A stretch of 20,311 nucleotides of DNA from Candidatus Alcyoniella australis. GTDB lineage: Bacteria; Lernaellota; Lernaellaia; JAVCCG01; Alcyoniellaceae. Under the pieces are notes generated by a model that saw only the letters and a program-made list of their open reading frames with translations, was not told the DNA's origin and did not search any database. The position numbers were made by a program, and so were the translations under genes. Positions within the stretch are counted from its first letter, which is position 1; each line of letters begins with the position of its first letter. The stretch lies in contig JAVCCG010000076.1 in assembly GCA_030765605.1 (NCBI GenBank), positions 1 to 20,311 on the forward strand, given 5' to 3'. Shown in pieces: positions 2,930-20,311 of this stretch.

Positions 2930-3053
2930 GCACCCTTGAGGTGCCCGCATGGCACGCGAGCGAACCCTGGTCGTATTCCCTACGAACCACGCCGCGATGG
3001 CACCTTTGAGCCGGCCCTGCTCGCGCCTACCAAATATTGTTATTCAACAATAT
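2930..3053. other. Convergent intergenic region with several inverted repeats
   Basis: No gene is seen. Three hairpins can be drawn: GGCACC/GGTGCC at 2929-2945, an 8-bp stem with one bulge at 2968-2989 (loop TTCCC), and the AT-rich palindrome at 3032-3055. A 12-nt near-repeat, GGCACC(C/T)TTGAG, occurs at 2929-2940 and 2999-3010. The only long T-rich 3' flank is that of the AT-rich palindrome. Confidence 0.5.
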
Positions 3054-3055
3054 TT
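3032..3055. terminator. AT-rich perfect palindrome, possible bidirectional terminator
   Basis: AAATATTGTT at 3032-3041 pairs perfectly with AACAATATTT at 3046-3055 around a 4-nt loop. It lies between converging genes and overlaps the stop codon of the minus-strand gene. Its AT content is very different from its surroundings. The stem is weak for a classical terminator and no separate U tract follows, so the role is inferred from position. Confidence 0.4.
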
Positions 3056-8436: not shown

Positions 8437-9132
8437 TCAATCCTCCTCGGATTTCGACCCCTCTTTGCTGTCTTGCTTATCGTCGTCGTCATCGTTTTTC
8501 TTGCCGTCGGCGTCGTCTTTCTTGCCGTCGTCATCGTCTTTCTTGCCGTCGTCATCGTTTTTCTTGCCGTCGGCGTCGTCTTTCTTGCCGTCGTCGTCGT
8601 CTTTCTTGTCGTCGTCATCGTTTTTCTTGCCGTCGTCATCGTCTTTCTTGCCGTCTTTGTCTTTGTCGTCTTTGTCGTCGTCATCGCGGGAGCTACGAAG
8701 CGGCTTCTCTTCGGACGCCTCTTCCGCATCGCGGTAGGGATTCTCGTCGCTGACCTGCTCGCCGCGCTCCTCTGCTTCCTTGCGCTCGGCCTCGCGCTTC
8801 TTGCGCTTCTCTTCCTCGCGCACGCGGATCGCATCGAAGTCCATGCGGTCGTCGAGCTTGATCGTCAGGAACCGCAGCACGTTCTGATGAATTTTGAGGT
8901 TACGCTCGATCTCGTGGATGTGATCGGGCTGCGCCTCGAACAAGAAGTTGACGTACAGGCCTCGACTGAAGCCCTCGATCTCGTATCCCAGGCGTTTCTT
9001 GCCCCAGACGTCGACCTTAACCACTTCGCCCTTCTGATTCACGATGTCGCGGAAGCGGTCGATGATCTGGTCGTTGACTTCCGGGGGAAGATCGGACTTG
9101 AGAATAAAGGTGAGCTCGTACTTTCGCAGCAT
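8437..9132 (-). CDS. rpsF: 30S ribosomal protein S6 with long Asp/Lys repeat tail
   Basis: Encodes 231 residues from the ATG at 9132, chosen because AAAGGAG lies 5 nt upstream and family similarity begins there (MLRKYELTFILKSDLP); an in-frame ATG 45 nt earlier is ignored. The S6 domain spans about 1-95 (VWGKKRLGYEIEGFSRGLYVNF, LRFLTIKLDD). A charged helix-like stretch follows (about 100-125), then an acidic linker, then eight 7-residue repeats of the type KKDDDDG (162-217), ending KSEED. Bacterial S6 is usually about 95-140 residues, so the tail is exceptional. S6 pairs with S18, encoded two genes downstream, on the 30S platform. It heads the operon rpsF-ssb-rpsR-DUF2232-rplI-dnaB. Confidence 0.95.
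   Translation of the reverse strand: MLRKYELTFILKSDLPPEVNDQIIDRFRDIVNQKGEVVKVDVWGKKRLGYEIEGFSRGLYVNFLFEAQPDHIHEIERNLKIHQNVLRFLTIKLDDRMDFDAIRVREEEKRKKREAERKEAEERGEQVSDENPYRDAEEASEEKPLRSSRDDDDKDDKDKDGKKDDDDGKKNDDDDKKDDDDGKKDDADGKKNDDDGKKDDDDGKKDDADGKKNDDDDDKQDSKEGSKSEED
8482..8649 (-). repeat. Eight tandem 21-bp units in the rpsF coding tail
   Basis: Eight in-frame 21-bp units encode KKDDDDG, KKNDDDD, KKDDDDG, KKDDADG, KKNDDDG, KKDDDDG, KKDDADG and KKNDDDD. The last six form two copies of a 63-bp super-unit (DDDDG, DDADG, NDDD types), which implies stepwise duplication. The unit length is a multiple of three, so gains or losses keep the frame and the essential downstream coupling to ssb. Confidence 0.9.
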
Positions 9133-9149
9133 TGAGTCTCCTTTCGGGT

Positions 9150-9177
9150 TTGCTCTCGGAATTGAGTATGAGAGCAA
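9150..9177 (-). promoter_or_regulatory. rpsF leader hairpin, candidate S6:S18 autoregulatory site
   Basis: A perfect 8-bp inverted repeat, TTGCTCTC/GAGAGCAA, with a 12-nt loop lies 11 nt upstream of the rpsF ribosome binding site. In the RNA the 3' side of the loop reads CCG at the stem junction. It is known that S6:S18 can bind a CCG-containing structure in rpsF leaders to repress its own operon. That this hairpin is such a site is inferred from position and the CCG only; the typical second helix is not evident. Confidence 0.45.
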
Positions 9178-12501: not shown

Positions 12502-13369
12502 CGAGGATTCCGCACTCGCGCAGTACGCCCTGAAGCTGTGCGTGATTCTCCGGCGAAATCTGGGTCAAGGGCAGCCGCAACTCGGGCCCGCAGCGTCCCA
12601 ACATCACCATTGCGGCCTTAACCGGCATGGGGTTGGATTCGATGAACATCGCCTTACAGGCCGGGAACAGCCGCAGGAAAATGCGCTGCGCCTCGCTGAA
12701 ACGTCCGGCCGCGAAATGCTCGTAGAGCTGTGACCAGGGTGCGGGCGCTACGTTGGCCAGCACCGAGATTATGCCTTGAGCCCCCACGGCCAGGTGCGGC
12801 AGGTAGAGGTTGTCATCGCCGGAGAGCACAGCCAACCGCGGCGCGCGCGCGCGGATTTCGATCGTCTGATGGATCGTACCGCCCGCCTCCTTGACCGCCA
12901 CGATCTGCGGCAGCGCGGCCAGACGCTCGACGGTCTGGGGCAGCAGGTTCACGCCGGTACGCGAGGGCACGTTGTAGAGCACCATCGGCAGGTCGGCCTG
13001 CTCGGCCACGGCCGCAAAGTGCTCGTAGAGCCCCTGCTGACTGGGCTTGACGTAGTAGGGAGTGACCACCAGCGCGGCGTCGGCTCCGACCTGTTTGGCC
13101 GCCTGCACCAGCGCGACGGCCTCGACCGTGCCGTTGGCTCCGGCGCCGGCGATCACCGGCACGCGTCCCTTGACGATCCGCACAGCGGCTTTGATGCAGT
13201 CGATGTGCTCTTCGACGCTCATCGTGGCTGCCTCGCCGGTGGTGCCGCAGGGGACCAGCCCGTGCACGCCCGAGTCGATCAGCCATTCCAGGTGGTCGCC
13301 AAAGGCCCGCATGTCGATCGCGCCGCCTTGAAACGGCGTGACAGAGGCAACAAAACATCCGCGGAACAT
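12494..13369 (-). CDS. dapA: 4-hydroxy-tetrahydrodipicolinate synthase
   Basis: Encodes 291 residues of a TIM-barrel, Schiff-base aldolase. DapA condenses pyruvate with aspartate semialdehyde, the committed step of lysine and diaminopimelate synthesis. Motifs: GTTGEAATMS (42-51), VVTPYYVKPSQQGLYEHF (101-118), YNVPSRTG (132-139, with the catalytic Tyr132), the Schiff-base Lys160 in AVKEAGG, SGDDNLYLPHLAVGAQGIISV and ESNPMPVKAAM. AGGAGGG lies 6 nt upstream of the ATG. A 70-nt gap separates it from dapF; it contains an AT-richer stretch and a 5-bp inverted repeat (CGATC/GATCG), so an internal promoter is possible but none is clear. Confidence 0.97.
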   Translation of the reverse strand: MFRGCFVASVTPFQGGAIDMRAFGDHLEWLIDSGVHGLVPCGTTGEAATMSVEEHIDCIKAAVRIVKGRVPVIAGAGANGTVEAVALVQAAKQVGADAALVVTPYYVKPSQQGLYEHFAAVAEQADLPMVLYNVPSRTGVNLLPQTVERLAALPQIVAVKEAGGTIHQTIEIRARAPRLAVLSGDDNLYLPHLAVGAQGIISVLANVAPAPWSQLYEHFAAGRFSEAQRIFLRLFPACKAMFIESNPMPVKAAMVMLGRCGPELRLPLTQISPENHAQLQGVLRECGILDA

Positions 13370-13439
13370 CGCCGTCCCTCCTATTAATTCGATCTGATGA
13401 AAACTGATCGTTGCATTTTACACGACCGTGGGCCCGAAA

Positions 13440-14264
13440 CTAGAGCGCCTCGGGCAGGATCTCGCCGCGGGCGATCATCCGCGCCGGGCCCGCCAGGTAC
13501 ACATCGCGGAATACGCCGGGCTCGGCCGCAGGCACGAAGTCCACGATCAGGGTCTCGCCCGAGCGCGTGACCACGCTCACCGGCGACTGCAATCCATGGG
13601 CGAGATGGGCAATCAGCGCGCTGGCCACGGCCCCGGTGCCGCAGGCCAGGGTCTCGGCCTCGACGCCGCGCTCGTAGGTGCGCAGCAGCAAGCGGCCCTG
13701 GTCGACCTGTGCGAAGTTGGCGTTGGCCCCGGCCGAGGCGAAGCGCCGATGAAAGCGCAGCCGCCCGCCCAGCTTCTCGACCGGGAACGAGTCCAGGTCG
13801 TCGATAAAGACCACGGCGTGCGGCACGCCGCTGTCGATGAACCATACGTCGAGCTCGCGGCCCGCTAGATCCATGCGCCGGGCCGGCTCGAACCCGCCGG
13901 GGTCTGTAACCTTGATCCGCGCGCCCTCGGTCGTAAGCTCGGCCTGGATCGGCCCGGCCAGGGTGCGAAAGGTCATCTTTGTCCCGGCCATGCCCAGCTC
14001 GTGGGCAAAGCGCGCGGCGCAGCGTGCGCCGTTGCCGCACATCTCGGCCTCGGAGCCGTCGGCGTTAAAAAAGCGCCACTGAAAATCGTATTGCGGATCG
14101 TCGAGCACCATAATCACGCCGTCCGCGCCCAGACTCAGCTTGCGGCGGCAGACCGCCCGTACCAGTTCCGCGCTGCGATCCGGGTCGGGATATCCCGAGC
14201 GGGCGTCGATCAGGATGAAGTCGTTGCCCGCGCCCGTGGCTTTGTAAAACCCGATCGGTTTCAT
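13440..14264 (-). CDS. dapF: Diaminopimelate epimerase
   Basis: Encodes 274 residues. DapF interconverts LL- and meso-diaminopimelate by a two-cysteine, cofactor-free mechanism. The start MKPIGFYKATGAGNDFILID is the family N-terminus, and the ATG overlaps the lysA stop (ATGA), so longer upstream readings are rejected. Both catalytic cysteines are present: Cys76 in AEMCGNGARC and Cys208 in ETLACGTGAVAS. The product feeds both cell wall and LysA. Confidence 0.96.
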   Translation of the reverse strand: MKPIGFYKATGAGNDFILIDARSGYPDPDRSAELVRAVCRRKLSLGADGVIMVLDDPQYDFQWRFFNADGSEAEMCGNGARCAARFAHELGMAGTKMTFRTLAGPIQAELTTEGARIKVTDPGGFEPARRMDLAGRELDVWFIDSGVPHAVVFIDDLDSFPVEKLGGRLRFHRRFASAGANANFAQVDQGRLLLRTYERGVEAETLACGTGAVASALIAHLAHGLQSPVSVVTRSGETLIVDFVPAAEPGVFRDVYLAGPARMIARGEILPEAL

Positions 14265-19393: not shown

Positions 19394-20011
19394 ATGAAAT
19401 ACCCAAAACTGATCGCCGTACTCTCCCTGGCCCTGCTCCTCAGCGCACTGAGCGCCCAGCCCTGCGCGGCCGTGACCGAGCGCGAGCTGGGCCTGGCGGC
19501 CCAGGGCGGCTACGAGCTGCTTTTGGGCGAGGCCTCCGACGTGCTCGACGGCGGACCGTGCTTTGGCATCAACGTCTCCTACGGCCTGACCCGCTGGTTC
19601 GGACTGGCCCTGGACTCGACCTACGGCATGCACTCGGTGGCGGACGAGGAAAAGTACGGCAAGCTGGATCTGACGCTGGTCAACGTGCTGGCCGGGCCAC
19701 GATTTACCCTCGACCTCGACCCGGTGTTCCCCTACGCCCAGCTGCTGGCCGGAGCCTCGATCTGGCGCTACGACGTGGAGTACGAACAGGACGACGGCGA
19801 GACGTTCACCGATGACGATCAGCGCGGACGCGGCGCCCTGGCCGCGAGCCTGGGGTTCGACGCCGCACTGTCGGACAACTTCCAACTGGGCATCAACGGA
19901 CGCTATTTCCATTTACTCGACGGCCTGAACCTGCCCAACGCCCACGACGACCTGCACGACGTGAACCTAAGCGGCGTACAGATCATGCTCCGCGCCGGCC
20001 TGATCTTTTAG
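19394..20011 (+). CDS. Small outer-membrane beta-barrel protein (second of the pair)
   Basis: Encodes 205 residues with a signal peptide (MKYPKLIAVLSLALLLSALSAQPCAA, cut near 25). Strand-like segments (GGPCFGINVSYGLTRWFGLALDSTYG, NVLAGPRFTLDLDPVFPYAQLLAGASIWRY, GALAASLGFDAALSDNFQLGINGRYFHL) and the end QIMLRAGLIF with terminal Phe fit an 8-strand OmpA-like barrel. It shares overall layout with the gene before it but not close sequence, so an old duplication is possible. The ATG is 1 nt after the preceding stop, with TTAGG 9 nt upstream. Confidence 0.78.
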   Translation: MKYPKLIAVLSLALLLSALSAQPCAAVTERELGLAAQGGYELLLGEASDVLDGGPCFGINVSYGLTRWFGLALDSTYGMHSVADEEKYGKLDLTLVNVLAGPRFTLDLDPVFPYAQLLAGASIWRYDVEYEQDDGETFTDDDQRGRGALAASLGFDAALSDNFQLGINGRYFHLLDGLNLPNAHDDLHDVNLSGVQIMLRAGLIF

Positions 20012-20023
20012 CGGGGGGTGGGG

Positions 20024-20045
20024 AAAGATCGTTAAAACGATCTTT
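20024..20045 (+). terminator. Hairpin terminator after the beta-barrel pair
   Basis: AAAGATCGT (20024-20032) pairs perfectly with ACGATCTTT (20037-20045) around a TAAA loop, 12 nt after the stop. The 3' arm ends in TTT, but the flank then reads GTGTG, so termination may be partial or factor-aided. Confidence 0.6.
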
Positions 20046-20064
20046 GTGTGTGGCGCGAGCGGCG

Positions 20065-20311
20065 GCGGCTTGGAGCCGCAGCAAGGCTCGCATATTTCCC
20101 GGATCGTTTAGCGTCGATCTATGCCGCGTCGCGGAGAGCATCGTCGAGCCACATGCAGGTCACGTACGCGAGTTTTGCCCCGGCTCGAAGCCGGGCGGCT
20201 ATGAGCCGCAGCAAGGCTCGCATATTTCCCTGGTCATTTTGCGTAGACCCATGCCGCGACGCGGAGAGCATCGTCGAGCCACATGCAGGTCACGTACGCG
20301 AGTTTTGCCCC
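20065..20311. repeat. Tandem 130-bp non-coding structured repeats (array cut by window end)
   Basis: Copy 1 is 20065-20194; copy 2 begins at 20195 and is cut at 20311. Over the 117 shared positions 107 agree. A 130-nt period cannot keep a reading frame, and no open frame spans it, so it is non-coding. Each copy folds into several small hairpins: GCGGCT/AGCCGC with a 3-nt loop, a 4-5-bp stem at 20102-20119 and 20232-20249, a CCGC/GCGG hairpin at 20124-20134, and CCCGGCT/AGCCGGG with a CGA loop at 20179-20195. The last 51 nt of each copy (20131-20181 and 20261-20311) are identical. I recognise no named repeat family; strand of any transcript is unknown. Confidence 0.9.

Follow-up and report, generated by a model that had tools for sequence, protein, structure and literature searches.

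Double-hairpin palindromic repeats dispersed in the genome of Candidatus Alcyoniella australis and lying mostly just 3′ of genes, in sense

The repeats at the contig end and their half unit

The window, that is, the whole stretch of DNA analysed here, is contig C76 in its entirety, 20,311 bases of a genome that is held in 157 contigs and amounts to 4.29 Mb. At its right-hand end, two copies of a 130-nt unit stand behind a gene for a predicted outer membrane protein, and further repeat elements lie to their left:

19394..20011, + strand: predicted outer membrane beta-barrel protein, 205 aa (PF13505, 48.5 bits), with the array at its 3′ end
20012..20050, + strand: module C, consisting of a G-rich leader, the hairpin AAAGATCGTTAAAACGATCTTT (20024-20045) and then GTGTG, between the TAG at 20009-20011 and copy 1
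20065..20130, + strand: left-arm half unit of copy 1, lineage a; R2 67.5 bits, half-unit profile 50.9 bits
20065-20079 and about 20102-20119, + strand: hairpins 1 and 2, respectively, of the copy 1 left arm
20128..20195, − strand: right-arm half unit of copy 1, which meets the left arm head to head; R2 64.5 bits and arm homology
20180-20194, − strand: hairpin 1 of the copy 1 right arm, CCGGCTCGAAGCCGG
20194..20260, + strand: left-arm half unit of copy 2, lineage b; R2 64.4 bits
20258..20311, − strand: right-arm half unit of copy 2, its 5′ end lost at the contig end; R2 39.1 bits
2929..2998, + strand: further single half unit, directly after the TAG of a short + strand reading frame; R2 52.4 bits
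18538-18721: copy of family B, with complementary ends AGCCCGGATTATTCATGAGG/CCTCATGAATAATCCGGGCT

A hairpin of the module C type (about 3029-3054) lies 3′ of the single half unit. Elsewhere, the window encodes a glycosyl hydrolase family 92 protein (375-2714, + strand), in which a GAC-rich repeat at 459-521 gives rise to poly-Asp near the N terminus, and ribosomal protein S6 (8437-9177, − strand), whose long Asp/Lys-rich C-terminal tail comes from a 21-bp tandem repeat at 8484-8655.

Analysis of the window with TRF revealed a repeat of period 130 with a score of 426. Copies 20065-20181 and 20195-20311 differ at 10 of 117 positions (20071, 20072, 20101, 20103, 20106, 20110, 20115, 20118, 20120 and 20129), all of them at sites given by an earlier, sequence-only reading of this DNA; the hairpins that it named and the change from A-T to G-C at 20103/20118 are likewise present. 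One of the two identical flanking stretches is 28 nt long, as had been claimed, and the other counts 52 nt rather than 51 nt. A blastn search of this genome with copy 2 returned 41 matches (E ≤ 0.001), a count that takes in the two from the window, and the repeat is therefore not a product of chance. Since the window ends at the contig end, the array is cut off there. Contig C5 starts with 90 nt identical to copy 2 and may, from its sequence, be the continuation of the array, but other copies are also 97–98% identical. Several contigs of this genome begin or end inside the repeat.

Alignment shows that left arms of the 130-nt unit are homologous to the reverse complements of right arms. The unit is an inverted pair of halves of about 66 nt and, because its two arms are homologous, we take the half to be the basic unit. 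The sequence-only reading had described a structured repeat and was right as to the hairpins, but it saw the structure only in part, the whole 130-nt unit being one imperfect palindrome. Each half spans 66–67 nt and contains, in order, hairpin 1 (GCRSCTTNGAGSYGC), a linker (CAAAACTCGCG), hairpin 2 and CCGCG. Its consensus reads GCRSC-TTNGA-GSYGC for hairpin 1, then NNCAAAACTCGCG, about 12 nt, a hairpin 2 of the type GGTCGT...ACGACC, and CYCCGCG.

A sequence-only model built from 19 full copies gave 180 matches on many contigs; many of these hit the same place on the two strands, and many cover just half of the model. With a profile of the half unit, 227 halves were found in the 323 kb of stretches fetched around matches, and a structured model adds at least about 40 outside those stretches, so that from the two together the family numbers at least about 260 halves in the genome, which is a lower bound. 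The halves occur singly, head to head with a shared central CCGCGwCGCGG (the 130-nt form), and head to tail in arrays with as many as eight members, spaced about 65 nt apart. Full units repeated in a row (+-+-) are rare, with four loci at spacings of 130, 114, 265 and 265. The array of 130-nt units that had been proposed is thus tandem in the window, but it is not the main form of an element whose basic unit is 66 nt and which is dispersed over many contigs. A mixed bin was considered as the cause of clustering and rejected, contigs with and without the repeat overlapping in tetranucleotide make-up. A further 20 contigs were chosen without matches and so have no bearing on overall density.

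Outside this genome, we found no convincing member of the family. The window has no Rfam match at the gathering score; blastn in 40 relatives returned the organism's own genome only; and degenerate exact patterns found nothing in GTDB contigs and IMG/VR, where records of the same or a very near genome may be absent. The structured model gave three weak matches in six class-level relatives (E 0.0015–0.008), which we take as chance, hairpin 1 fitting imperfectly and most of the middle being missing. Samples of two sister genera, searched for repeats de novo, held only CRISPR-like arrays, coding repeats and short simple repeats. In one sister genome (G002, L146:133-513 and 799-1183), regularly spaced repeats resemble a CRISPR array. 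The many dispersed copies mark a lineage-specific expansion, which would probably have come about through transposition by a mobiliser.

Mosaic partners and folding

The half units, which we call family A, occur together with two other elements. Module C consists of a G-rich leader and a hairpin, GGGGNGGTGGGGTAAAGATCG...CGATCTTTGTGTG, with stem variants AATAATGT and AAATATTG; the stem occurs in several complementary versions. Of 48 AT-rich perfect hairpins of this type, 40 are no more than 120 nt away from a half, a zone that takes up 21% of the sample at most. Family B is a separate dispersed palindromic family of about 181 nt with 46 blastn matches in the genome; blastn did not find it in 59 other genomes. 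Five B copies (in stretches L214, L215, L216, L217 and L220) hold a half unit of family A, at one internal site that all five share; next to it, at least two of them also retain part of a second half. These copies show that A and B are nested and carried together, and the two appear to have been copied as one. When B copies without the A element are taken as the empty site, 10 nt are seen to be replaced in those that carry it, with no clean target duplication; among the five, neither a clean empty site nor a target duplication for A was found.

Exchange is also evident within the family. All four combinations of two left-half and two right-half types exist, from which we conclude that copies exchange modules. 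The left halves of the window copies are of types a (GGATCGTTTAGCGTCGATCT) and b (GGTCATTTTGCGTAGACC), each of which is also present elsewhere in the genome. The A-T to G-C change had been read as a compensatory event of the window copies themselves; the change is real, but to judge from these sequences it is a difference between two old lineages. Because these lineages pre-exist and halves are exchanged among copies, the window copies are not independent evidence of compensation.

Folded as RNA, full units form a single long hairpin (z −2.0, −2.9 and −4.2). Among 70 diverse halves, 87.5% of cells pair, compared with 81.3% in shuffles and 33–45% with slid partners, and both-sided changes are found in 74 cells against 28.5 in shuffles, with none of 500 shuffles as high. 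The signal is greatest in hairpin 1, which is 94.8% paired and in which three well-populated pairs show exchanges on both sides. Both of its central variable pairs are Watson–Crick in 179 of 194 halves, where 79 would be expected if the two sides were independent, and three main stem types at these pairs (107, 41 and 30 halves) together make up 178 of the 194. At least 47 changes of stem type are required by a tree of the remaining unit sequence, which is short and poorly resolved. The covariation is carried by these three main stem types and by exchanged modules.

The genome matches and the stem covariation in the 70 halves bear out the earlier proposal of a multi-copy structured element. Selection on folding had been proposed as well, and the stems do covary; covariation alone, however, is also compatible with mutational upkeep of palindromes. 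The stable folds and the covariation would likewise suit the form envisaged in the sequence-only reading, either a small RNA in many copies or an RNA array that is processed at a spacing of 130 nt. This we consider highly improbable, given the basic unit of 66 nt, the mere four +-+- loci with their differing spacings, the lack of an Rfam match, and the lack of a promoter-like (sigma-70) site by consensus.

Placement relative to genes

Gene calls are our own and come from an ORF scorer based on codon usage, for which long ORFs served as the training set. The sample comprises the stretches fetched around matches and so yields no absolute density after genes; orientation is not affected by this sampling. 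Of 100 clusters of halves, 38 lie between convergent, 29 between tandem and 8 between divergent genes; 6 overlap a called gene, and the rest have no neighbour in the stretch. The median distance to the neighbouring stop is 11 nt, with 70 of 119 distances at 30 nt or less, and no such distance to a start codon (0 of 50) is that short. At 67 of the 72 stop codons that have a half within 30 nt, the half is in sense (binomial p 6e-15), its hairpin 1 being the closer of the two to the stop. Half-to-stop distances peak at 0, +1 and −10 nt, the last reflecting a TGA inside the hairpin loop; a start 0–1 nt after the stop is commonest. TAG is commoner among the stops adjacent to halves (34/72 versus 59/195, p 0.014). 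Thus, the repeats are located mostly just 3′ of genes, in sense.

Head-to-head pairs follow the same pattern. Where both neighbours are known and there is no overlap, 19 pairs lie between convergent, 15 between tandem and 1 between divergent genes, and in the convergent cases each gene has its own sense half. At C119:139744-140256 (L128:1002-1514), eight head-to-tail halves stand in sense, the first beginning at the base after a tRNA-Leu gene, and a stop codon is therefore not needed.

The position after stops and between convergent genes, together with the hairpins, might indicate that the repeat is the organism's standard transcription terminator, copied to many genes. Searching by consensus gave no intrinsic terminator in 19900-20311, however; hairpin 1 is followed by CAAAAC and not by a T-run, and tandem arrays of up to eight would not be expected of a terminator. 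We regard this explanation as improbable. A second alternative is that the repeats are parasitic DNA only, with no RNA role: the palindromes would be kept perfect through template switching or gene conversion from arm to arm, complete 15-nt hairpins would pass from copy to copy, and copies would survive after stops since insertions elsewhere are harmful. The restriction to three main stem types, exchanged as blocks in the at least 47 changes on the tree, the existence of all four left/right combinations and the mosaic and nested elements all agree with such an origin. Tolerance alone, on the other hand, predicts neither the sense orientation at 67 of 72 stops nor the sense array directly after the tRNA gene, unless insertion is itself oriented, and we think it doubtful that parasitism is the whole explanation.

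Known repeat systems and the proposed origin

Several known systems resemble the family in part. ERIC-like palindromes and MITEs are imperfect palindromes of about 130 nt, intergenic, dispersed and bounded by terminal inverted repeats, all of which applies here too, but in the present case no target duplication was seen and no related transposon ends were found, each end is itself a hairpin, and the half unit stands alone. Integron attC sites are also imperfect palindromes, with ends RYYYAAC/GTTRRRY, that keep their structure while their sequence varies and lie in sense just after a stop codon. The likeness of our repeats to attC in these respects does not extend to the ends of the half unit, which are GGC... 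and CCGCG... by column counts at both ends of 194 halves, or to the arrays, which have no genes between units; the repeats are, moreover, scattered between convergent chromosomal genes.

The closest parallels are with REP (PU) sequences and BIMEs, so that the earlier statement that no family matches, which is accurate for Rfam, does not extend to the kind of element. Like these, the family is a set of high-copy, extragenic palindromes whose stem complementarity is kept (PMC3733652, PMC8266576, PMC2817692), that occur as singles, inverted dimers and tandem mosaics, and that lie downstream of genes in convergent or unidirectional arrangement. Published REPs are extragenic, form inverted dimers and BIMEs, and have palindromes kept through complementary changes (PMC3733652; PMC2817692); they are found downstream of coding regions, between convergent or unidirectional genes (PMC3733652), often 1–20 nt after stops (PMC12306157). 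For the strong sense orientation (67 of 72, taken against the gene upstream), we found no published figure for comparison. REPs differ from the half unit, with its 66–67 nt and two hairpins, in their size of 20–50 nt (PMC8266576), which hairpin 1 alone would fit, and no conserved tetranucleotide tag precedes hairpin 1 here (GTAG in 10 and CGTC in 7 of 182 halves). Compared with REPINs (PMC3116915), the 130-nt form is similar in that two inverted palindromic halves form a longer hairpin, of about 100–130 nt, but differs in that halves are common as singles and in direct arrays, and in that the pair often coincides with two convergent gene ends.

The genome has a single intact RAYT gene (L031:1351-1923, on contig C95 at 13328-13900; 190 aa; NF047646, 146 bits against a cut-off of 80). 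As with RAYT-associated REPs and REPINs, then, a RAYT gene is present, but it is not flanked by two inverted copies: no half unit lies beside it, the best R2 score nearby being 7.7 bits, and its flanks are not repeated as members of the half-unit family. The sister genomes have 2–16 RAYT-like matches each, yet lack the repeat. On a strict REP/REPIN model, this RAYT would recognise hairpin 1 and move halves or pairs. Its presence as one intact gene, the REPIN-like inverted pairs and the high copy number speak for the model, and the missing GTAG or CGTC tag, the missing unit beside the gene and a unit longer than that of REPs speak against it; we treat it as a tentative possibility. Because the tag and the RAYT flanking were tested and not found, we have not filed the family as REP. 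By analogy, it may function as REPs do, being a variant of larger size with two hairpins.

Overall, with a rough probability of 0.6, we favour the view that these are lineage-specific, high-copy, REP/BIME-like palindromes that have spread as non-autonomous mobile DNA and are kept as sense 3′-end hairpins. Most likely, then, they are mobile DNA ending up as hairpins in mRNA tails, presumably through transcription and the action of a mobiliser. Support is greatest for the lineage-specific palindromic expansion, then for the sense location at gene 3′ ends, and then for a role at RNA 3′ ends. Spread might have involved a folded single strand recognised by a Y1/HUH transposase, the genome's one RAYT being a candidate. 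Copies would be kept at gene 3′ ends; in sense, their hairpins would become part of the transcribed 3′ UTR, where, as the orientation suggests, they may act as RNA 3′-end structures, as a barrier to exonucleases or through an effect on termination or translation. Such roles have been proposed for REPs. In Escherichia coli, REPs at 15 nt or less from the stop are reported to lower translation (PMC12306157). Two convergent genes, each with its own sense half, would give the head-to-head 130-nt palindrome. A bolder version seems to us unlikely: the family would represent a new class of mobile palindrome with gene 3′ ends as its target or as the site of its selection, always in the same orientation. 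It would be a portable double-hairpin module of 3′ UTRs that has spread without the REP tag and RAYT logic, and the 130-nt form would appear where each of two convergent genes had acquired a copy.

The family adds an untagged, two-hairpin, strongly sense-oriented member to a class of palindromic repeats whose spread and function are debated, and it accounts for where the contigs of this genome break. Its orientation and stop-codon distances make it testable whether such repeats have an RNA role at gene ends or are merely tolerated there, and the natural copies, several hundred in number and with stems exchanged among them, already amount to a series of mutants.
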